38,573 nucleotides of DNA from a virus. The notes below the pieces were generated by a model, which was given only the letters and a program-made list of their open reading frames with translations, did not search any database and was not told the origin of the DNA. The position numbers were made by a program, and so were the translations under genes. Every line of letters begins with the position of its first letter. Positions within the stretch are counted from its first letter, which is position 1. Shown here piece by piece: positions 1 through 31,857 of this stretch. The stretch is from IMG/VR virus record IMGVR_UViG_3300049812_002241, positions 1 through 38,573 of that record. The stretch is one strand, 5' to 3'.

Positions 1-328
1 TGTTGTTACCTTTAAATGGATAACGTGTATCTGATTCAGTCTTGGTGTAATTACCTTGAATGTTAAACACATCATACACAACCATCTCAATGACATCACT
101 AGCTGATGCCCCTGTTGTTAATGTTACAGATGTTCCATTAGTTGCGGCATAGTCTGTGGTAGGTTTTAGTAGCACACCATTCTGATATACATCCATGTAC
201 ATACCATCTGTGTACACAAGGACATTAGAACTGCTGTCACTTCCTGAGAATACTGTTTGATTTGCACTAGCTGTGTATAAGAAGCGTGTGCGTACACCGT
301 TAGTTGGGCTTTTTCCTATGTATGGCAT
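1..328 (-). CDS. Tail-fibre-like protein, N-terminal part (cut by window edge)
   Basis: The gene reads off the left edge, so only about 109 N-terminal residues are visible, beginning MPYIGKSPTNG. The same kind of start (MPYIGG) opens the 148-aa gene at 3760-4206. Both are followed by a short beta-rich domain with a VDG/TDG turn and a DVF/NFLG segment, a pattern I associate with marine-phage fibre or appendage proteins. Its ATG overlaps the stop codon of the preceding paralogue by one base (TAATG), so translation is probably coupled. The visible end (KTESDTRYP) looks like the entry to a fibre shaft, but this is inference. Confidence 0.8.
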   Translation of the reverse strand, partial: MPYIGKSPTNGVRTRFLYTASANQTVFSGSDSSSNVLVYTDGMYMDVYQNGVLLKPTTDYAATNGTSVTLTTGASASDVIEMVVYDVFNIQGNYTKTESDTRYPFKGNN

Positions 329-717
329 TACGCTAAGTCTCCGTGACCCATTGTTGAAACATTTGATGAATCTTGTAAACCCGGAATAGCCTGACTATAA
401 CTATTAACTCTTAGGCTTCCTGTGGCCATACCCCCAAAATACATATTGAAGAAATAAGCAGTGTTGGCTGTACTGCTTCCTTGACTTAACATATTGCCAG
501 CGTAGGTAGCATTACCAAAAGAGTTAGTCCAAGAGGTGGTGTACTGACCTGTGCCGTGGTCTGTGGCACTACTCGTATTCAGTGAATCATTTAATGTTGT
601 ACCTGAACCGCCATAGTTAGCCCAAGCCTTCGCACTACCATTTGCTACATACGACAAGCCAACGGAGTTATTACCACTGGCATCTTTTAGTGTATCTACT
701 CTTAATTCGCTTGCCAT
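328..717 (-). CDS. Short tail-associated paralogue 1 (AKAW/GDLA family)
   Basis: A 129-aa protein, one of five paralogues here. Shared features are an N-terminal L.VDTLKD segment, the motif AKAW near residue 30, a DSLN.SS.TD.GTGQY block near the middle, a TN..........Y stretch, a variable Ser/Thr/Asn-rich second half and the invariant C-terminus GHGDLA. It lies in a run of fibre genes joined by one- to four-base overlaps, so it is probably a virion tip or fibre-associated component. The function is not established. The last codons, GGA GAC TTA GC, also form the ribosome-binding site of the next gene. Confidence 0.85.
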   Translation of the reverse strand: MASELRVDTLKDASGNNSVGLSYVANGSAKAWANYGGSGTTLNDSLNTSSATDHGTGQYTTSWTNSFGNATYAGNMLSQGSSTANTAYFFNMYFGGMATGSLRVNSYSQAIPGLQDSSNVSTMGHGDLA

Positions 718-1109
718 TATGCTAAGTCTCCTGACATCATCGTATTAGTAAACTCAGAATCAGCCCTGTTGGTAGTATAATCCTGACCAGTGTTTATTTG
801 CAAAGAACTGGTTGCATTTGGTATGACAGAACATTCTCTATCAGAATACGCTGTATTTGAACAGGCACTACCAGATGTACCTGCTTGAGCGGCACTTAAA
901 TTATTAGTTAAAGTTTTAGTGTAGTTACCTCCACCATTATCTGTAGCACTAGATACGTTAAAGCTATCTCTTAAACCAAATGTAGAACCATTCAAATCCA
1001 TCCAAGCCTTAATAAGACCCTGTTGCAAGTTAGTTGTGGCAGTACCTTCTGCTACAATATTAGTAGAACCACTGGCTATTACATTAGCTAAATCTGATGC
1101 TCTACTCAT
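717..1109 (-). CDS. Short tail-associated paralogue 2 (AKAW/GDLA family)
   Basis: A 130-aa member of the paralogue set. It has LQQGLIKAW in place of AKAW, then DSFNVSSATDNGGGNY, TNN, a strongly diverged and Cys-containing second half (SACSNTAYSDRECSV), and a C-terminus SGDLA. The start overlaps the stop of paralogue 3 and its stop overlaps the start of paralogue 1, so the three are probably translated as a coupled series. The conserved first half and free second half suggest a common docking part and a variable exposed part; this is inference. Confidence 0.85.
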   Translation of the reverse strand: MSRASDLANVIASGSTNIVAEGTATTNLQQGLIKAWMDLNGSTFGLRDSFNVSSATDNGGGNYTKTLTNNLSAAQAGTSGSACSNTAYSDRECSVIPNATSSLQINTGQDYTTNRADSEFTNTMMSGDLA

Positions 1110-1534
1110 GCTAAGTCTCCGTGATATACAGCATTAATCCAATTTGAATCAGTGTCTGAACCAGATGGATTACTTGTACTCAAATTATGTCTTCCTGTAC
1201 CATCCGTGCTATCTGCGTTCCTTACTTCAGAATCTGTTCGGTCATATGTAAAAGTTTTTACTCCACCAGATGCATACGCAGAAGAAGACGTAGAGGCATA
1301 ATTTGCATTTGCAAAATTATTATTGATAAATATTGCATAGTTTCCTGTTCCTGAATCTGTAATGCTTGTAATATTTAAAGAATCTAGTGTAGATATAGTA
1401 TCTGTTCCATGTAAGGTGTGCCAAGCCTTCGCCAACCCCTGAACAACGGAAGTAGTTACAGCACCGCCATCAGAGTTAACTGTGCTGATTGCGTCTGAAT
1501 TTAATCCATCACCTCTAACTTGTGTTAGTGCCAT
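1106..1534 (-). CDS. Short tail-associated paralogue 3 (AKAW/GDLA family)
   Basis: A 142-aa member of the set with VVQGLAKAW around residue 38, DSLNITSITDSGTGNY near the centre and HGDLA at the end. Its terminal codons, GGA GAC TTA GCA TGA, contain both a GGAG ribosome-binding site and the overlapping ATG of the next gene. The second half, rich in Ser, Asp and Thr, does not align with its siblings. A small gap separates it from the chaperone-like gene upstream at 1544-1918. Confidence 0.85.
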   Translation of the reverse strand: MALTQVRGDGLNSDAISTVNSDGGAVTTSVVQGLAKAWHTLHGTDTISTLDSLNITSITDSGTGNYAIFINNNFANANYASTSSSAYASGGVKTFTYDRTDSEVRNADSTDGTGRHNLSTSNPSGSDTDSNWINAVYHGDLA

Positions 1535-1543
1535 AGCCCATTC

Positions 1544-1918
1544 CTATGCGTAAGGACTAGTTCCTAGCAAACTTGTATCCCATGCGGCTTTTAGTTCTGC
1601 AATCGTTGTTGCATTTGTGATAGCACTAGCTGCTGGAGCATTACGAAGATTAGTTTTCTTTGTTACACTTGCCGCTTTTGCAGTTGCATCATCTGCTTCT
1701 AATGCTTTCATATACACTACATCTTCTGCTTCAAGCAAAGGTGCGCGAACTTCCCTAATTTTATCTTTAAAAATGTTTTTCGCAGTAGCTAAATCTTCTG
1801 ATATTACGTTACCAGAAAGTGTCCAAGCACCACGAAAATGACGGTCAGACGGCTTAGTAACACTAGCGGAATTAGCTTGATTGCCGTCCTTATCTACTAT
1901 GTATGTTGTTACAGCCAT
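1544..1918 (-). CDS. Tail-fibre assembly/chaperone-like small protein
   Basis: A 124-aa protein starting MAVTTYIVDKDGNQ, followed by a SDRHFRGAWTLSGNVISEDLATAKNIFKDKIREVRAP block and a helical C-terminal half with LRNAP and a terminal AWD segment. This pattern (FRGAW, then K.IR..R.PLL, then K..LRN.P) recurs in marine phages beside fibre genes and resembles tail-fibre assembly proteins of the DUF4376 type. That family link is from memory and unconfirmed. Its position in the middle of the fibre cluster agrees with a folding or attachment helper. The start is preceded by a good AGGAGAT ribosome-binding site. Confidence 0.8.
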   Translation of the reverse strand: MAVTTYIVDKDGNQANSASVTKPSDRHFRGAWTLSGNVISEDLATAKNIFKDKIREVRAPLLEAEDVVYMKALEADDATAKAASVTKKTNLRNAPAASAITNATTIAELKAAWDTSLLGTSPYA

Positions 1919-1929
1919 CTAAATCTCCT

Positions 1930-2388
1930 TTATGCGGCTAGTTCTTCAGAGATACGCCAAGCGTTTCTCCACTCTCTTGTTGCAGGAAGTTGATTCTTCC
2001 TACAGATAACCATCTTTGGACGATTACCTTCATCCCAATTCTTCCAAACGTGTTCTGGTATGTCCTTCTGAATTAAATATTCTATTGCTTGTTCCTCTGT
2101 CATTGCCTCGATAGGTTCTGTCTGATGCAACAGATAACCACGAGTATGTTTCTTGAAGTCAGGTTGTGCTTCATCCTTCTTTAATTCCCAATATACCCAA
2201 ACAGGCGGCAATATACCACCCTGTAAAGCACAAGCCATCCAATTTGGGTCAGGCACAAGTATCTTTGCACATTCTTCTATGTTGTCTTCATATACTACAC
2301 GGTAGTCTGATTGTACTCCGTCTAGGTTTTCTTTAGCCCAGCATAGTCTGTCAAATAAATGTGTGCCTTTGAATTGTGGTGTATTCAT
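1930..2388 (-). CDS. Conserved phage protein of unknown function
   Basis: A 152-aa soluble-looking protein, rich in Trp and charged residues (PNWMACALQGG, PVWVYWELKKDE, HVWKNWDEG, ATREWRNAWRIS). I see no catalytic motif or membrane segment. It sits between two fibre-associated genes with spacings of 3 to 11 bp. That makes it part of the same transcript, and a role in fibre maturation or as a minor virion protein is possible. I recognise it only as a type of hypothetical protein seen in marine phages. Confidence 0.8.
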   Translation of the reverse strand: MNTPQFKGTHLFDRLCWAKENLDGVQSDYRVVYEDNIEECAKILVPDPNWMACALQGGILPPVWVYWELKKDEAQPDFKKHTRGYLLHQTEPIEAMTEEQAIEYLIQKDIPEHVWKNWDEGNRPKMVICRKNQLPATREWRNAWRISEELAA

Positions 2389-2391
2389 TGG

Positions 2392-2961
2392 TTATCCTAT
2401 TGCCATTATTTGTAGTGAAGGTGGATGAAGTTGAGAAGAACCTACTCCATCAAAATAATAAGTTTCGTGAAGTTTAGCTTCAGTCGTACTAGAATATTCT
2501 CTACCTTGTATCTTTATAGTTTTTGGAGTTGTCCAACTTGTAAGTGCGCCAGTGTTAAAATCATTAGCACTAGCATTACATTGAAATGAAGCAACAATTG
2601 TAGTGTGATGTCCATAGACAGTGTTTTGACCCGTGGTAAACCTACGATAAATTATTTCATTATCATCAAGATAAACTCGTCCGTTTACCATAGCATTACC
2701 GTCACCCCTAGCTAACATAAAATTGTATGTATAAATTACATTTTTTGTACCTTCAGGCGGTGTATAAGTTATGCTACTACCTGTTATATCTGCATAACTC
2801 GTAGTCATATTTTGCGCACCAGTAACATTTTCTAATGTATATGAACCACTTAAAACTTCAAAAGTTTGTCCAGCACATACACCACCAAACATCTCAAGCA
2901 CTCTACCAGTGCCTTTAGTATTATCTGCTAACAGGAGATTGTCTACTTTCAAAGTACTCAT
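2392..2961 (-). CDS. Tail-associated beta-sandwich-like protein (shares the paralogue N-terminus)
   Basis: A 189-aa protein beginning MSTLKVDNLLLADNTKGTG, which matches the first residues of the GDLA paralogues (MSTLKV, MASELRVDTLKD). The rest differs: beta-strand-rich sequence with SYTLENVTGAQNMTTSYADITGS, a YNFMLARGDGNAMVNGRVYLDD stretch and a C-terminus LQIMAIG rather than GDLA. The N-terminus may be a common docking segment joined to a different distal domain, possibly a tip or adhesin-like knob. Its ATG overlaps the stop codon of paralogue 4. Confidence 0.8.
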   Translation of the reverse strand: MSTLKVDNLLLADNTKGTGRVLEMFGGVCAGQTFEVLSGSYTLENVTGAQNMTTSYADITGSSITYTPPEGTKNVIYTYNFMLARGDGNAMVNGRVYLDDNEIIYRRFTTGQNTVYGHHTTIVASFQCNASANDFNTGALTSWTTPKTIKIQGREYSSTTEAKLHETYYFDGVGSSQLHPPSLQIMAIG

Positions 2962-3386
2962 GCTAAGTCTCCGTGAACTGATGCAAACATATGTGATGAA
3001 TTAATGTAAGCAACTCCAGATTCATTAAATGCGGCAATTTCAAAATTTTCAGAAGTTGGGTCTGTTTGGCTAGGACCACCACAATTATATACTGTTCTTG
3101 CGGTAGTAGAGTTTCTACCATTTACAGATATTGAATAATTTACATTAGCCATGTTATTACTAAATCCTATGCGATAATCGCCTGTACCATTATCAATTAT
3201 CACCGCACAATTCAGTGAACCTCTATCATAATCTCCAACTGCCCCTGTAGAAGTACCATCAAAGTTAATCCAAGCCTTCGCCAACCCCTGTTGCAAAGAT
3301 GTTTGCGTACTACCATTCTCACCTGTTACAGTAACAGCATTAGCAGAGGTCTTGCCTGAGATTTTATCTACTAAGATTTCACTCAT
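2958..3386 (-). CDS. Short tail-associated paralogue 4 (AKAW/GDLA family)
   Basis: A 142-aa member of the set. It begins MSEILVDKISGKT, has SLQQGLAKAWINFDGTST, then DRGSLN and IDNGTGDYRIGFSNNMANVNY, a variable second half, and ends SVHGDLA. Its closing codons give GGAGACTTAGCATG, so the next start lies inside them. The stretch encoding LAKAW is nearly the same in DNA as in paralogue 3 (caagccttcgccaacccctg on the plus strand), which suggests recent duplication or gene conversion of the front half. Confidence 0.85.
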   Translation of the reverse strand: MSEILVDKISGKTSANAVTVTGENGSTQTSLQQGLAKAWINFDGTSTGAVGDYDRGSLNCAVIIDNGTGDYRIGFSNNMANVNYSISVNGRNSTTARTVYNCGGPSQTDPTSENFEIAAFNESGVAYINSSHMFASVHGDLA

Positions 3387-3763
3387 GCTAAGTCTCCAAA
3401 TATTGCAGTGCTTACATATGTTGCGTCAACATTTGCGCTGTAAGCAACATTAAACGCTCGCCACGCATACTGGCTTGATGTGTTAGCAAACGTAGAGTAA
3501 GGTAATGATATTTCATAAGCTGTTGTATTTGACGTTCCTCGCTCTGCTACAGATGAATAATCAGCGTTATTCATACTGTTTGTGAAGCCTAAAGTTGTTG
3601 CTCCAGACCCACCGTCTGTGATTGAGGTAATGTTAAAACTGTCTCTGTTAGACTGTGTGCCTGACATGTTAGTGTTTGCCCAAGCCTTTGCAGCATGTTG
3701 ATTAGTCAGCGTAACTGCACCACCAGCAGAAGTTTGTATTGTTGTTACCTTTAGCGTACTCAT
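3383..3763 (-). CDS. Short tail-associated paralogue 5 (AKAW/GDLA family)
   Basis: A 126-aa member beginning MSTLKVTTIQTSAGG, with HAAKAWANTNMSG, DSFNITSITDGGSGATTLGFTNSMNNADY, and ending AIFGDLA. It is the most promoter-proximal of the five in the leftward transcript and directly follows the MPYIGG fibre-like gene with a four-base overlap. As in its siblings, the second half is not conserved. Confidence 0.85.
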   Translation of the reverse strand: MSTLKVTTIQTSAGGAVTLTNQHAAKAWANTNMSGTQSNRDSFNITSITDGGSGATTLGFTNSMNNADYSSVAERGTSNTTAYEISLPYSTFANTSSQYAWRAFNVAYSANVDATYVSTAIFGDLA

Positions 3764-4206
3764 ATTATCACCAACGTACCGCCATCTTCTACTTGTAGCG
3801 TGATGTTAGAGTTAACTGTTATTGGGCCTGTAGCACTTGCATTCTCTGCGCCACCTATCGTGACATTAGCACCTACAGTCTTATCATTTACACGAAACAT
3901 ACCACCACCAATAAAGTCAGACTTATTAGCTGTCGGGGGTGTGACTGTAGCTATATTAAGACCAAGAAAGTTTACAAAGATATTGCCAGTACCTGTTGAA
4001 GGTGCAGTACTAAAGCTAAGTGTTGTACCACTTACGCTATACTTGTTTGTGTCTTGAATAACGCCATCTACAGAAACAACAATATCCTGGTCGTTTCCTA
4101 CTGTTCTAGATAATGTAAAAGAGGTGGTAGAATTGTTTCCATTAAATCGCTCTACGGATGGAATATCTACAAAGTTTGCTGTTGGTTGACCACCGATATA
4201 AGGCAT
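3760..4206 (-). CDS. Tail-fibre-like protein with MPYIGG N-terminus
   Basis: A 148-aa protein. Residues 1-20 (MPYIGGQPTANFVDIPSVE) are the attachment-type N-terminus shared with the gene at the left edge. Residues 20-85 form a beta-rich domain (FTLSRTVGNDQDIVVSVDGVIQ, then YSVSGTTLSFSTAP, then NIFVNFLGLNIATVTPPT) common in marine-phage fibres. The C-terminal third, TGPITVNSNITLQVEDGGTLVII, resembles the closing strand of a fibre shaft. It is an intermediate or truncated fibre of its own rather than part of the 1303-aa fibre, because separate start and stop signals are present. Confidence 0.82.
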   Translation of the reverse strand: MPYIGGQPTANFVDIPSVERFNGNNSTTSFTLSRTVGNDQDIVVSVDGVIQDTNKYSVSGTTLSFSTAPSTGTGNIFVNFLGLNIATVTPPTANKSDFIGGGMFRVNDKTVGANVTIGGAENASATGPITVNSNITLQVEDGGTLVII

Positions 4207-16938: not shown

Positions 16939-17373
16939 TCATATACTGATAACATCTTCTGGGTCTAAAATAGTAGCAAGAATCTCATCATCGTTGAGTA
17001 TCCTTACTTCTCCACCTTCAATTTTAAATCTTGACCCTGCATATCTTGCAAACATAATCCAATCACCCTCTTTGCACCAAGAGCCTGTGGGAAACTTTTG
17101 CATATCTTGATAAGCTAAAGGTCCTAATTTTAAAACATACCCAACTGTTGTTGAAATTTCGTTTGTTTCAATAACTTGATCTGGAATATAAACTCCTCCA
17201 GAAGTTTTTGACTTGCCTTTGTAGGGCAAAACAACAATTCTCCAACCTGTTGGTGAAGGAATTCTTTCTTTTAAAGATTTATCTATGAGTGTTGGGTCTA
17301 ATACCCTCTCCTTGGGATTAACCCAAGGCGTAGACAGAGCCTCCGTCTTTTCTGCCGTGGCTGTTTTATTCAT
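16939..17373 (-). CDS. Phage GroES-like co-chaperonin
   Basis: A 144-aa protein. Residues 41-140 fit the Cpn10 fold: PTGWRIVVLPYKGKSKTSGG at the first strand and mobile loop, VYIPDQ after the loop, TTVGYVLKLGPLAY, W.KEGDWIMFARYAGSRFKIEGGEVRILNDDEILATI at the C-terminal strands. The first 40 residues are an extension absent from bacterial GroES. Viral Cpn10 proteins such as T4 gp31 and marine-phage homologues cap host GroEL to fold the capsid protein. Here the gene is immediately upstream of the scaffold and capsid genes, which fits that role. The stop TGA overlaps the scaffold ribosome-binding site. Confidence 0.87.
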   Translation of the reverse strand: MNKTATAEKTEALSTPWVNPKERVLDPTLIDKSLKERIPSPTGWRIVVLPYKGKSKTSGGVYIPDQVIETNEISTTVGYVLKLGPLAYQDMQKFPTGSWCKEGDWIMFARYAGSRFKIEGGEVRILNDDEILATILDPEDVISI

Positions 17374-21796: not shown

Positions 21797-22159
21797 TTAT
21801 TGCATATAGGGGATGTATTCAGCTATGCCCTTCTTTAAATTCTGCTTTGGCCTATCCTCTACGTTAATTACATCCGTAAACTTCATAGCAAACTCTCTGG
21901 CCTGATCTTCTGTATCAAACTCTAAAAACTCGCCCGTGTTAAAAGCCTTGCGAATCGCCATGTCTGGTGAGAATTTCGTGAGCACAGGACCAACAGGACT
22001 ATCCACAGGAAATACCGTGGGAGATACAAAAAACCGACCATCTATTGTAAAGTCCATCAACTGAACCATTGCATTGTCTTGCGTCATTGGAGACTTGGGG
22101 TCCATGATCCGCGATACGAAGTTCGGGGACACCGCGCCCTTAACTGTTTTTTCAGCCAT
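21797..22159 (-). CDS. 120-aa conserved protein between TerL and portal
   Basis: I use the ATG at 22159 (MAEKTVKGAVSPNFVSRIMDPKSPMTQDN), which overlaps the end of TerL by eight bases. A longer frame would extend into TerL. The protein contains a beta-rich segment (VQLMDFTIDGRFFVSPTVFPVDSPVGPVLTKFS) and a C-terminal helical part with FDTEDQAREFAMKFTDVIN and GIAEYIPYM. It is common in this position in marine phages, but I know no function. A role in packaging or portal assembly is only positional. Confidence 0.8.
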   Translation of the reverse strand: MAEKTVKGAVSPNFVSRIMDPKSPMTQDNAMVQLMDFTIDGRFFVSPTVFPVDSPVGPVLTKFSPDMAIRKAFNTGEFLEFDTEDQAREFAMKFTDVINVEDRPKQNLKKGIAEYIPYMQ

Positions 22160-23612
22160 AATACACGCGAACCTTGCTGTACTTCTCTTCGTCAGGGTCC
22201 CAATCATCGTCTGGCAACGTCACAAAATTACCCTGACGATACCGCATCAAAGCTTGGGTCATACTATCTACCAAATCATCATACTCTCCATTTGGAAAAG
22301 CTGCAACCTCCTCAATCATCTCATCTGCAAACACCTTGTCAGGACACCAAACCATCCCAGCCTCAAATAATGGCGATACCGAATGAACCCTCGACACCTT
22401 GTCATTACCCCGACTTGGCGTAAAATTCACAACAGGTATGCCCATGTTCCGTAGTTCGTGAGTCAAGGGCGTTCCAGAAGCCTTCGCCTCAATCACAACC
22501 GTATCAGGGTCCCAATACGTCCACTCATCATACGCAACCTTCTTCAACTCAGGAAAATCCCATCTACCCTTCTTGCTATCTAACAAAATAATCGCAGGCC
22601 GTGGACTGTTAGCCGAAGGACGAAATACACCCCATGTCGTTATCGCACTGTAATCCGATGTCGTGCTCTTCGAAAATGCCGTATCATAACTCTGAATGAC
22701 ATACTCTAACTCTGGTATATCCTCCTCCTCCCAACGCTTCCACCACTCGCGTGGAATAATCGCATTATCATCCCCCGTAGGGTTTTGCTGATACTGAGCA
22801 TTCCACTTACTAGGGGGTATCGATGCCTGTACTTTTTCTAAATCATCTATAGGCCAAAACTCAGGCCAACAAGAATTGCCACTTGGCATAACCGCAGGTA
22901 ACTCAACTATCTCCCATTGATCCGCCCTCTCATCCTTTATCATCTGACGCTGTAACTGACCCGTTAAATCCTTCTCCGACCACCGCGTCATAACCAAAAT
23001 TATAGCACCCCCTGGCTGTAATCTCTGTCTTGGACCACCCGTGTACCAATCCCAATCATTGTCAAACCCACTAGCCGACATCGCAGTCTGCTCCGAATGC
23101 GGATCATCAATGATAATCAAATCACCACCGCGTCCAGCCAAGTTTGAGCCAACCCCAACAGCATAATACATACCACCGCGAGCCGTGTCCCACCTACCAG
23201 AAGCTTTACTGTCAACCGATAACCGCGCATCAGGGAAAATATCCGTGTAATCTTCCCGTTCCAGAAGGTTCTTAATCTTTCTACCAAAAGATACCGCGAG
23301 TTCCGTGGTGTGCGTTGCCTGAATAATCTTCATGTTCGGGTTTTTGCCAATCATCCACGCAGGCAAAAGGTAACTTGCAAACTCTGACTTCGTATGACGA
23401 GGAGCCATATTGATTATCAGACGTTTTAACTCGCCTCGCGCCACTCTTTCAAACTTTTCAGCTATAATCCTGTGGTGTTCTCCAGCTATAAACTCAGGCC
23501 ACATGACGTTTACGAAGGTTAAAAAGTCATTTTTACAGGCATCTACACGATTTAACTGAGCCAACCGTAGTTCAAGCTTATTTATTCTATGTTCAATGTC
23601 TAGTTCGCTCAA
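22152..23612 (-). CDS. terL: Terminase large subunit (TerL)
   Basis: A 486-aa packaging motor. The ATPase domain has an atypical Walker A at residues 69-76 (MAPRHTKS, in place of GxxGxGKS), Walker B at 164-170 (LIIIDDP), and a coupling MTRWSEKDL near 208. The nuclease domain (RNase H fold) shows Asp310 (QSYDTAFSKSTTSDYSA), Glu375 (VVIEAKASG) and Asp446/Asp449 (DDLVDSM). The start is TTG with GGAG seven bases upstream; no ATG lies nearby. The matching small subunit is not adjacent but at 29.3 kb on the other strand. Confidence 0.95.
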   Translation of the reverse strand: MSELDIEHRINKLELRLAQLNRVDACKNDFLTFVNVMWPEFIAGEHHRIIAEKFERVARGELKRLIINMAPRHTKSEFASYLLPAWMIGKNPNMKIIQATHTTELAVSFGRKIKNLLEREDYTDIFPDARLSVDSKASGRWDTARGGMYYAVGVGSNLAGRGGDLIIIDDPHSEQTAMSASGFDNDWDWYTGGPRQRLQPGGAIILVMTRWSEKDLTGQLQRQMIKDERADQWEIVELPAVMPSGNSCWPEFWPIDDLEKVQASIPPSKWNAQYQQNPTGDDNAIIPREWWKRWEEEDIPELEYVIQSYDTAFSKSTTSDYSAITTWGVFRPSANSPRPAIILLDSKKGRWDFPELKKVAYDEWTYWDPDTVVIEAKASGTPLTHELRNMGIPVVNFTPSRGNDKVSRVHSVSPLFEAGMVWCPDKVFADEMIEEVAAFPNGEYDDLVDSMTQALMRYRQGNFVTLPDDDWDPDEEKYSKVRVYYG

Positions 23613-29325: not shown

Positions 29326-29940
29326 ATGGAAAAAGAAAATAGTCCTATATCTAGAGGTCGTGGAAGACCAAAAGGTAGAGGTTTAAATGAAAACAGCCCT
29401 TTGACAGACAAGCAGAAGCGTTTTGTTACTCAACTCGTGGACAATGATGGTACAATCACGAAGCGACAGGCTGCGATAAACGCAGGATATTCTGAAAAAA
29501 GTGCTCACTCTAAGGCATATGAGTTAACGAACCCAAACATATGTCCCCATGTGGTTGCTGAAATTCGTAAAAAGAAAATTGAATTAGATGAAAAGTTCGG
29601 GATCACCTTTTCGAGGCACGTAAGAGACTTACAACGCATCAGGGACATAGCTTTAGAGAACGGAGCGTATTCAGCTGCGGTTCAAGCAGAATACAGAAGA
29701 GGTCAAGCTCAAGGAAACATTTACGTTAATAAGTCTGAGATAAGACATGGTTCTATCGATTCTATGAGCCGTGAAGAGGTAGAGAAGGCACTTCAGGATT
29801 TAAAGAATTCATATGGAAACAATGTTATCAACATCACTCCTAGCGAAGCAACCAAGCAAATCGAAGAAGCCAGAGTCGAAGCTATATCAGGATTTAAAGA
29901 AATATCAGAAAAAGAATCTATCAAAGTCTCATCTAACTAG
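29326..29940 (+). CDS. terS: Terminase small subunit (TerS)
   Basis: A 204-aa protein. Start at ATG 29326 with GGGAA upstream; the in-frame TTG at 29314 adds four residues and no site. An AT-hook-like RGRGRPKGRG near residue 10 precedes the typical domain: LTDKQKRFVTQLVDNDGTITKRQAAINAGYSEKSAHSKAYELTNP with a helix-turn-helix, then a central coiled-coil region (FSRHVRDLQRIRDIALENGAYSAAVQAEYRRGQAQG). It recognises the packaging site and recruits TerL. The gene is on the strand opposite to terL and 5.7 kb away, an unusual separation. It overlaps the next gene by 128 bases. Confidence 0.9.
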   Translation: MEKENSPISRGRGRPKGRGLNENSPLTDKQKRFVTQLVDNDGTITKRQAAINAGYSEKSAHSKAYELTNPNICPHVVAEIRKKKIELDEKFGITFSRHVRDLQRIRDIALENGAYSAAVQAEYRRGQAQGNIYVNKSEIRHGSIDSMSREEVEKALQDLKNSYGNNVINITPSEATKQIEEARVEAISGFKEISEKESIKVSSN

Positions 29941-30256
29941 AATAGAGACGACAGTAAGTCTTGGTTTTCCTGACATTTTTTATTCTGATCCGCGAGGCGT
30001 GTTTCATTTACTGGAGTTAAAGACAAGTCCTAACTTTGCCGTGAAGATTTCTCCCCACCAACTAAGCTTTATGTTAAGGCATCAGAATTCATCGGCATGG
30101 GTTTTGGTTCGCGGTTTAAAGACGATGGAGCTATATTTATATCATTCTAGCCAGATTATGGGGTTAAACGAATCGGGTCTTCGATTCGCGCCAAAGTGCA
30201 AAACAAGCGATTTTGGTGATATTTTCGACAATGTTTCACGTGAAACATTCCGTTAA
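29813..30256 (+). CDS. VRR-NUC/PD-(D/E)XK nuclease
   Basis: About 147 aa. The catalytic signature is TRIETTVSLGFPDIFY (E and PD), then GVFHLLELKTS (ExK) and PHQLSFMLRH, in the order seen in VRR-NUC and Holliday-resolvase-type nucleases. The N-terminal helix (SKLYQDLKKYQK), normally part of this domain, is encoded within the 128-base overlap with TerS, so the early start (29813 or 29822) is likely correct. It may resolve branched DNA before packaging. The last codons, NVSRETFR, spell out parS site 1. Confidence 0.8.
   Translation: METMLSTSLLAKQPSKSKKPESKLYQDLKKYQKKNLSKSHLTRIETTVSLGFPDIFYSDPRGVFHLLELKTSPNFAVKISPHQLSFMLRHQNSSAWVLVRGLKTMELYLYHSSQIMGLNESGLRFAPKCKTSDFGDIFDNVSRETFR
30230..30249. 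promoter_or_regulatory. parS site 1
   Basis: AATGTTTCACGTGAAACATT is a perfect 20-bp palindrome whose inner 16 bases (30232-30247) equal the consensus bacterial parS bound by chromosomal ParB. It lies in the last codons of the nuclease gene. Confidence 0.88.
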
Positions 30257-30287
30257 CTCGTTGTTTTCATTCACTTTAAAATAAAAC

Positions 30288-30316
30288 TACCAAATGTATG
30301 CGACTTGTGGTATACT
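30288..30316 (+). promoter_or_regulatory. Early-type promoter E, between the parS sites
   Basis: Plus strand: GTATGCGA (30296-30303), seven bases, TATACT (30311-30316); the -35 position reads TACCAA. Same core and spacing as promoters A-D on the other strand. The message would begin near 30323 with a 160-base leader to the gene at 30482. Confidence 0.7.
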
Positions 30317-30410
30317 ATGTATAGGTACTCTTCATGGCGAAGACACTTACGGAATACTTTTTCGAAGGTTGAGCCAACAGTTCCAGTAGCCATGAGGACT
30401 ACCGTCTTGC

Positions 30411-30430
30411 AATGTTTCACGTGAAACATT
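30411..30430. promoter_or_regulatory. parS site 2
   Basis: The same 20-bp palindrome as site 1, 181 bases on, in the leader of the papain-like gene. Core 30413-30428. Both copies are identical over all 20 bases. Confidence 0.88.
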
Positions 30431-30481: not shown

Positions 30482-30988
30482 ATGTCTGAGTCAAAAATTA
30501 CATTAGAGGGTTTAATTTCTGAAGCTCTTAATGGTCATATTAACAAACCTGTTAATAAAACTTTTGTTTTTAATGACGGAGGCGCGAAGGAGGCAGGATT
30601 TAAAGGTCGTGCTGATGACTGTGTATGTCGTTCTTTTGCAATCGTAAGTGGCAAATCATATAATGAGGTTGCAGATCTTATTAAGGAGTTTTCCAAGCGA
30701 GAGCGAAAGTCCAAGCGCAAACGTAATAAATCAACAGTTCGTTCAGGTGTTTATAAAGCTACCGTTAAAAAAGTAGCTGAAGCACTTGATCTTGTCTGGA
30801 CACCGACAATGTCTATTGGTTCGGGTTGCACGGTTCATTTAAGGTCGGATGAATTGCCAAGCGGTACGATTGCAGTCAATTGTAGTCTTCACGTTACAGC
30901 AATGATTGATGGTGTCATCCATGACACGCATGATCCTTCTCGAAATGGGACACGTTGTGTTTACGGTTATTGGTCAAAACAATCGTAA
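30482..30988 (+). CDS. Papain-like fold protein of phages and plasmids
   Basis: A 168-aa protein. Motifs are GRADDCVCRSFAIVSGKSY with Cys47, VWTPTMSIGSGCTVHLRSDELPSG, SLHVTAMIDGVIHDTHDPS with His137 and Asp144/148, and the end GTRCVYGYW. The Cys...His...Asp order and VxDGxxHDT segment suggest a cysteine-peptidase-like fold; an uncharacterised family with the same GSGC.VHLR.DELP...DPSR.GTRCVYGYW is common on alphaproteobacterial plasmids and phages. A long leader with parS site 2 precedes it. AAGGGG lies nine bases before the ATG. Confidence 0.83.
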   Translation: MSESKITLEGLISEALNGHINKPVNKTFVFNDGGAKEAGFKGRADDCVCRSFAIVSGKSYNEVADLIKEFSKRERKSKRKRNKSTVRSGVYKATVKKVAEALDLVWTPTMSIGSGCTVHLRSDELPSGTIAVNCSLHVTAMIDGVIHDTHDPSRNGTRCVYGYWSKQS

Positions 30989-31627
30989 CTGTGTTTTAAT
31001 CACATGAGCATCCGTCTGGTATCTTTTAGAAGTGCCAGACGGATATTCTTCGATTGGATAGTTTAAAGCTTTTTTAAACGTTTTCTTTTCTTTTTTAGAA
31101 CCTAATAGATAGATGTATCTATGTTTCTGGGGTCGCGCTATGTGCTCATATTTATCTGTTTCACGCATACGTTCTTTTAGGGACACTTGCTCACACAAAG
31201 TTTTTGAATGTTTATTAGTTCCTATTTCGCGCCATTCGTTTCTTTTTGCGGATATTCCTGTATAGATAAAGTTACACGCCTGATAGATTGTTCCGACATG
31301 GTTCATGCTTGTATCTGCATAGGACACCACGATTCGTGGGCTGCGCACCATCTTCAGAGTTTTAGCAACAAAGAAGGAGGCTTCGTTTTTATTATTGCGT
31401 AGGAGGCAAACACGGTTTAGTTCGAGAACAAGGTGAGAATAATCATCGCCACAAATGCCCCGACAAAGAGATGGTGAGGGTGGAATTCCATAGGTAATCA
31501 CTCCTATTAGTTCTTTGCCGTCATACAAGCCAAACGCATCGGTGATATTAGGGACACGTTTGGCATAATGACGATTAAGAATCCAATCGTAAGTTTCTTC
31601 TGATTTAATTTTGTCAACGTTTAGCAT
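30974..31627 (-). CDS. Mom-like DNA-modification protein (GNAT fold)
   Basis: A 217-aa protein from the ATG at 31627, which overlaps the upstream stop (TAATG). It shows WILNRHYAKRVPNITDAFGLYDGKELIGVITYG, ELNRVCLLRNNKNEASFFVAKTL, IVVSYADTSMNHVGTIYQACNFIYTG and KHRYIYLLGSKKEKK. This order matches the Mu Mom family, which modifies adenines in phage DNA (methylcarbamoylation) to evade restriction. The chemistry here is inferred from family. It converges with the papain-like gene, overlapping its end by 15 bases. Confidence 0.85.
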   Translation of the reverse strand: MLNVDKIKSEETYDWILNRHYAKRVPNITDAFGLYDGKELIGVITYGIPPSPSLCRGICGDDYSHLVLELNRVCLLRNNKNEASFFVAKTLKMVRSPRIVVSYADTSMNHVGTIYQACNFIYTGISAKRNEWREIGTNKHSKTLCEQVSLKERMRETDKYEHIARPQKHRYIYLLGSKKEKKTFKKALNYPIEEYPSGTSKRYQTDAHVIKTQLRLF

Positions 31628-31857
31628 TAGTACCCACGCAGAACCCTCCGCCAATCTTTACGGATTTTACTTGCGTATTCTTCTGCTTCAATAATGTCGT
31701 ACCCAGCCTTTTCACAACGCATTGCGATTGTTGTTTCTATAAGCAGTCGAATACGTTGCACGGCATCAATAAACGAATCCTCTTCCTCATAATATTTTAA
31801 ATTTTCTTTTGCCAAATTTTCTCTAACAATTTGTAGAGCAATATCATCTTTATTCAT
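31627..31857 (-). CDS. 76-aa helical protein, unknown
   Basis: Charged all-helical sequence: MNKDDIALQIVRENLAKENLKYYEEEDSFIDAVQRIRLLIETTIAMRCEKAGYDIIEAEEYASKIRKDWRRVLRGY in outline. The start and stop each overlap a neighbour by one base. It sits between the 99-aa protein and the Mom-like gene and may be a partner of either. No family known. Confidence 0.78.
   Translation of the reverse strand: MNKDDIALQIVRENLAKENLKYYEEEDSFIDAVQRIRLLIETTIAMRCEKAGYDIIEAEEYASKIRKDWRRVLRGY

Follow-up and report, generated by a model that had tools for sequence, protein, structure and literature searches.

The 38,573-nt stretch of viral DNA analysed here (the window), which is IMG/VR record IMGVR_UViG_3300049812_002241 used in full as a linear entry, carries two exact copies of the bacterial chromosomal parS consensus and no visible ParA or ParB. 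Few bacterial segregation systems are as widespread as the ParB-parS pair, in which ParB loads at parS as a CTP-dependent DNA clamp. Judging from the sequence, we consider the two sites to be probable loading sites for the chromosomal ParB of the host, with the reader protein supplied by the host (probability about 0.75). The relevant features of the window are the following.

16939-17373, minus strand: GroES-like co-chaperonin (Cpn10), annotated too in HTVC027P, HTVC023P and DSL-LC04
22152..23612, minus strand: terminase large subunit (TerL), the marker gene defining the phage family
29314..29940, plus strand: terminase small subunit (TerS; Terminase_2 PF03592, phrog_51)
29813..30256, plus strand: nuclease-like protein (phrog_2165), with parS site 1 within its last codons
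30230..30249, no strand: parS site 1, a 20-bp palindrome with the 16-mer at 30232-30247, overlapping the 3' end of the nuclease-like ORF (...DNVSRETFR, stop)
30250..30410, plus strand: inter-site element with half-site TGCGAC, promoter-like motif and leader hairpin
30411..30430, no strand: parS site 2, the same 20-bp palindrome with the 16-mer at 30413-30428, 53 bp before the ATG (30482) of the downstream ORF
30482..30988, plus strand: 168-aa ORF downstream of parS site 2 (phrog_3754, function unknown; no Pfam match)
30974-31654, minus strand: Mom-type DNA modification gene, adjoining the parS region

The window is not a whole genome: relatives measure about 57-65 kb, and the 38.6-kb entry is probably incomplete. 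Its source was a marine phage, probably a lytic podovirus with a genome of roughly 60 kb. TerL shares 53-60% identity with that of pelagiphages HTVC027P and HTVC023P, 023Pt_psg01 and DSL-LC04 (genomes of 57-62 kb). The gene content (primase, helicase, DNA polymerase A, Mom, terminase and cell-wall hydrolase, together with capsid and portal genes identified via matches to relatives) is podoviral, signs of lysogeny are absent, and no integrase was found in the window or in ten relatives. A series of mutually similar small ORFs at 328-4206 (minus strand; at most 38% identity to the first) perhaps encodes paralogous tail or receptor-binding proteins, and the Mom gene had no tblastn match in parS-bearing relatives beyond the near-identical group. 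TerL and MCP scans gave no host assignment: no TerL relative appeared in the ~85,000 bacterial and archaeal genomes scanned, and the MCP scan placed contigs of the phage family at 43 MAG or SAG loci of mixed taxa, where a phage contig inside a bacterial bin (MAG) is no proof of host. The exact parS was not found in the phage contigs of the SAR11 SAGs AG-422-I02 and AG-404-L13.

Both copies of the 16-mer TGTTTCACGTGAAACA are exact and lie 181 bp apart, start to start. Each sits in the perfect 20-bp palindrome AATGTTTCACGTGAAACATT, around which a 21-bp repeat is shared (30229-30249 and 30410-30430). The first-pass annotation had described this pair as chromosomal parS that is not expected by chance, with one site in the last codons of a nuclease gene (ORF 29813-30256) and the other ahead of the ORF at 30482, and all of this was borne out: a first-order Markov model predicts 2.4e-5 exact copies in the window. 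No further site with three or fewer mismatches to the 16-mer was present in the window, and dinucleotide shuffles of it gave 0.34 sites at that threshold. Site 1 is identical in the near-identical contigs L123, L334 and L339, while site 2 has a homologue with the common flank tatttgaaat in L129, L131, L137, L141, L324, L358, L365 and L369. An intrinsic terminator built from the palindrome was also considered; none was found, and there is no T run.

Between the two sites there is an operator half-site, TGCGAC (30299-30304), followed by a promoter-like TGTGGTATACT with a -10-like TATACT at 30311-30316, which we infer to act as a promoter from its sequence; a simple sigma-70 scan did not pick it out. 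A leader hairpin follows at about 30324-30403 (fold z = -2.4), and no Rfam element was detected between the sites. Relatives in the window's subclade (L040, L129, L324, L329, L358, L365 and L378) likewise carry paired sites, 137-251 bp apart. In relatives the palindrome TGYGACATAGTGTCGCA is conserved between the paired sites (L040:3692-3708; L129:4262-4278; L365:82-98), of which the half-site alone remains in the window, and several relatives have a TGTGGTAnnCT motif at the inter-site location. After the site homologous to that at 30413, most relatives show a conserved TATTTGAAAT stretch and then a start codon 44-53 bp on.

The gene that occupies the slot after the paired sites (30482-30988 in the window; L040:3862-4608; L129:3820-4164) is exchanged among relatives in the manner of an accessory gene, with at least four unrelated small proteins. 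It is a CGPAVISAVTG protein in L040, L378, L329 and L310 and other short proteins in L129, L131, L369, L324 and L358; the 168-aa protein of the window showed no BLASTP homology to the L040-type protein. Thus, what is conserved here is the DNA element, whereas the gene behind it can be exchanged. The label "papain-like" that had been given to the 168-aa ORF is weakly supported, set against a phrog_3754 assignment of unknown function and the lack of a Pfam match, and an operator specific to a papain gene was rejected, this gene being replaced in relatives. The terS-nuclease pair is conserved in relatives, yet it can stand in the opposite orientation relative to parS. A specific tie to the nuclease or the papain-like gene is accordingly not supported, as the parS element of relatives heads other genes.

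To what extent parS belongs to the phage family was assessed in 80 relative contigs sampled by TerL, independently of parS. The exact 16-mer occurred in 22 copies and nine unrelated flank contexts, against a Markov expectation of 0.00035, and parS was the only widely recurring 16-bp palindrome in these contigs (the next best had two contexts). Pooling the scans gave 99 family loci with 122 sites and about 68 distinct flanks among the matches listed, "family" here requiring an identity of 35% or more in TerL, portal, MCP, PolA or TerS, a definition that admits a few phages at greater distance, L045 for example. Most family records hold one to three sites per genome. Sites lay outside ORFs of at least 100 aa in 33 of 54 cases, compared with 16% of the DNA, and within 1 kb upstream of the TerL ORF in 35 of the 52 family loci having TerL (6.3 expected). 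The presence of parS is patchy, with seven changes on the TerL tree, five of them forced by starred branches. HTVC027P carries a site with one mismatch; no site with two or fewer was present in HTVC023P, 023Pt_psg01 or DSL-LC04. The other two one-mismatch sites of the family (L202 and L239) are changed at the central position, which may represent decay. The first-pass annotation had proposed that its reading would fall if the sites were absent or degenerate in close relatives; this objection failed, because sites persist in close and distant relatives. It had also proposed a search for conservation at the same locus: the 16-mer recurs across the family, in dozens of unrelated flanks. Separately, of 64 whole contigs, 15 had parS no more than 300 bp from one end, with 6.4 expected (among them L019, L023, L024, L041, L050, L067, L073, L080, L084 and L099), which may reflect either assembly breaks or genome ends.

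When IMG/VR was scanned, the exact 16-mer was found in at least 120 contigs, as was the 20-mer AATGTTTCACGTGAAACATT alone, whereas the control palindromes of the same composition, TGTTTGACGTCAAACA and TGTTTCAGCTGAAACA, occurred in 1 and 33 contigs of the entire collection. Sixteen of the listed 16-mer contigs hold the 20-mer, and all 16 recur among the listed 20-mer contigs; therefore, the scans appear to run in fixed order, and extrapolation by proportion puts the number of 16-mer contigs at an estimated 900 or more. Outside the family, 175 distinct parS flanks were counted among the matches listed, and among the carriers are genuine phages whose terminases and portals are unrelated. Arrays also exist: L018 and L045 each have five sites near TerL, and a 5-kb segment of L088 (8906-13878) contains twelve parS-like sites, most of them TGTTTCACGTGGAACA. 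L088 is a viral contig of 65% GC from a 116.7-kb record with a polynucleotide kinase gene, in which ParB_N was undetected; the phage contig L117, whose terminase is phrog_2, has four copies of CGTTTCACGTGAAACG next to an exact and a near-exact parS (117-2405). A general tie between parS and the terminase was rejected, as unrelated phages gave 5 of 29 against 4.5 expected; the tie holds within the family only. The idea that the sites arose by chance, or are host DNA acquired through transduction or assembly, has in its favour the short length of the motif and nothing else. It is refuted by the site counts, both in the window and against the control palindromes, and by flanks that are phage-borne and, by the dozen, mutually unrelated, and we assign it a negligible probability.

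The pattern of imperfect sites was then compared with that of bacterial parS. Among one-mismatch sites in the parS-selected viral set, the change fell at folded position 5 (T to C) in four contigs, at position 1 in five and at position 8 in one; 9 of 10 contigs thus concentrate at positions 1 and 5, which concerns viral sites at large, the two sites of the window being free of mismatches. The same two positions vary in Caulobacter parS and in P. aeruginosa parS1-4 (PMC7022226, PMC4368675). The reversed-sequence control gave no site at two or fewer mismatches. In L098, TGTTCCACGTGGAACA, a known P. aeruginosa parS, lies 24 bp from an exact site. The identical 16-mer is present in marine alphaproteobacterial chromosomes, namely in SAR11, SAR116, Maricaulis and Rhodobacteraceae assemblies; those of SAR11 and SAR116 that were examined have it within or next to rsmG/mnmG, adjoining parA or parA-parB.

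That no ParAB is visible in the window, as the first reading had it, was confirmed by Pfam analysis of 52 window ORFs, which returned no ParA, no ParB and no DNA-binding regulator besides the terminase small subunit. Domain searches beyond the window, including records of 59-65 kb, agreed: the window record and 16 relatives lacked ParB_N (PF02195) and AAA_31/ParA (PF13614), and HTH_ParB (PF17762) was likewise missing from that record and 18 relatives, with control genomes positive in each case. A ParABS of the phage's own in the missing part of its genome was rejected on the strength of the 59-65 kb relatives, which lack these domains. The window phage therefore differs from phage-plasmids, which encode their own ParA and ParB, and has parS copies without a cognate ParB, the arrangement of SGI1-type elements. 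Its sites match TGTTTCACGTGAAACA as chromosomal parS does, and they are not near a parA-parB and oriC of the same replicon. Among 100 parS-bearing viral records, many of them short fragments, ParB_N exceeded the cut-off in three, with one weaker match in addition and none in family records; as many contigs are fragments, absence is informative for near-complete records only.

We propose that the phage contributes the DNA site alone and that host ParB reads it. Upon infection, host ParB would load at the phage parS and spread over the adjacent 1-2 kb; in Caulobacter, spreading reaches up to 2 kb. Once phage DNA builds up, its strong sites would compete with the few parS at the host origin, and ParB, and via ParB also ParA, SMC or division-plane proteins, would be drawn from the chromosome to the phage. 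In Caulobacter, strong parS sites placed on a plasmid reduce viability by as much as about 1000-fold, since the plasmid, and not the chromosome, is then segregated (PMC5815017), and the mobile element SGI1 hijacks plasmid ParB using two parS copies (PMC10954446). We put at even odds the broader proposition of a widespread viral strategy: in many lineages, lytic phages would bring along perfect host centromeres as a means of capturing the chromosomal ParB clamp during infection, thereby switching off chromosome segregation and control of the cell cycle or redirecting them to phage use. As for the selected benefit, capture of ParB from the chromosome is tentatively deemed the most likely, at somewhat below even odds. 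Capture is favoured because the sites span unrelated phages at no fixed place and because arrays occur, and an added local control because the paired sites of the window's subclade bracket a promoter. Capture, local promoter control and positioning or segregation are not mutually exclusive and can act together; the non-random placement within the family is not required by pure titration.

One rival is a ParB-based promoter switch. Host ParB would clamp or bridge the 181-bp segment and hold the promoter off until phage copies exceed ParB; elsewhere in the family, the target would be the late promoter ahead of TerL. The subclade pairs, which bracket the conserved palindrome, the promoter-like motif and the window's leader hairpin, speak for it, as do the short distance from site 2 to whichever gene follows in most subclade members (44-53 bp), the TerL-proximal loci of the family and the fact that P. 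aeruginosa ParB represses promoters beside the intergenic parS3 and parS4 (PMC5521831). Weighed against the lack of a TerL tie in unrelated phages, arrays of 5 to 12 sites, members with a single site or none and the sigma-70 scan that did not single out the window promoter, it appears rather unlikely as the benefit. Lower still in our estimate is a plasmid-like use, in which ParB-parS would tie the phage genome to host ParA or SMC and thereby secure its positioning or its inheritance in a carrier state. The site is that of the host centromere, and borrowed parS sites stabilise SGI1 (PMC10954446), but the window and ten relatives have no integrase, ParA is lacking and no TerL relative turned up in the bacterial genomes scanned, which also leaves the stable extrachromosomal state suggested in the first-pass annotation unsupported. 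Quiet maintenance is further argued against because a plasmid-borne strong parS is toxic in Caulobacter (PMC5815017).

It is doubtful, more so than plasmid-like partition, that the palindrome is the operator of a phage-encoded regulator reading the host's sequence by coincidence. The sites do lie in promoter-like regions, and many small ORFs have no known function, but unrelated phages and flanks repeatedly show the host sequence without a change, near-matches vary like bacterial parS, and neither HTH_ParB in family records nor another known DNA-binding regulator among the window ORFs was found.

ParB-less phages with chromosomal parS were not reported in the literature searched, outside which lay most subscription papers and all preprints. 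If phages routinely carry parS without ParB, ParB would be an overlooked host factor for infection, and phage DNA would be a natural probe of ParB sharing between replicons; parS without ParB also offers a simple sequence signature for spotting such phages in public data.

Centromere sites on phage DNA are known from the phage-plasmids P1 and N15 and from cluster A mycobacteriophages. P1 and N15 encode their own ParABS with private sites, and the same holds for the partition proteins and sites of cluster A mycobacteriophages (PMC7157519), whereas no such proteins were found in the window phage. Bacterial chromosomal ParABS shares the identical 16-bp consensus, with imperfect copies varying at the same positions, but the phage copies sit in ParB-less genomes away from parA-parB. 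P. aeruginosa parS3 and parS4 are comparable as intergenic sites beside promoters, unlike the phage sites in that the genes are chromosomal (PMC5521831). SGI1, also a mobile element, carries parS in two copies, lacks a cognate ParB and uses the system of another replicon; it differs as an integrated island relying on the ParABS of an IncC plasmid (PMC10954446), whereas the likely target of the window phage, which looks lytic, is the chromosomal ParB of its host.
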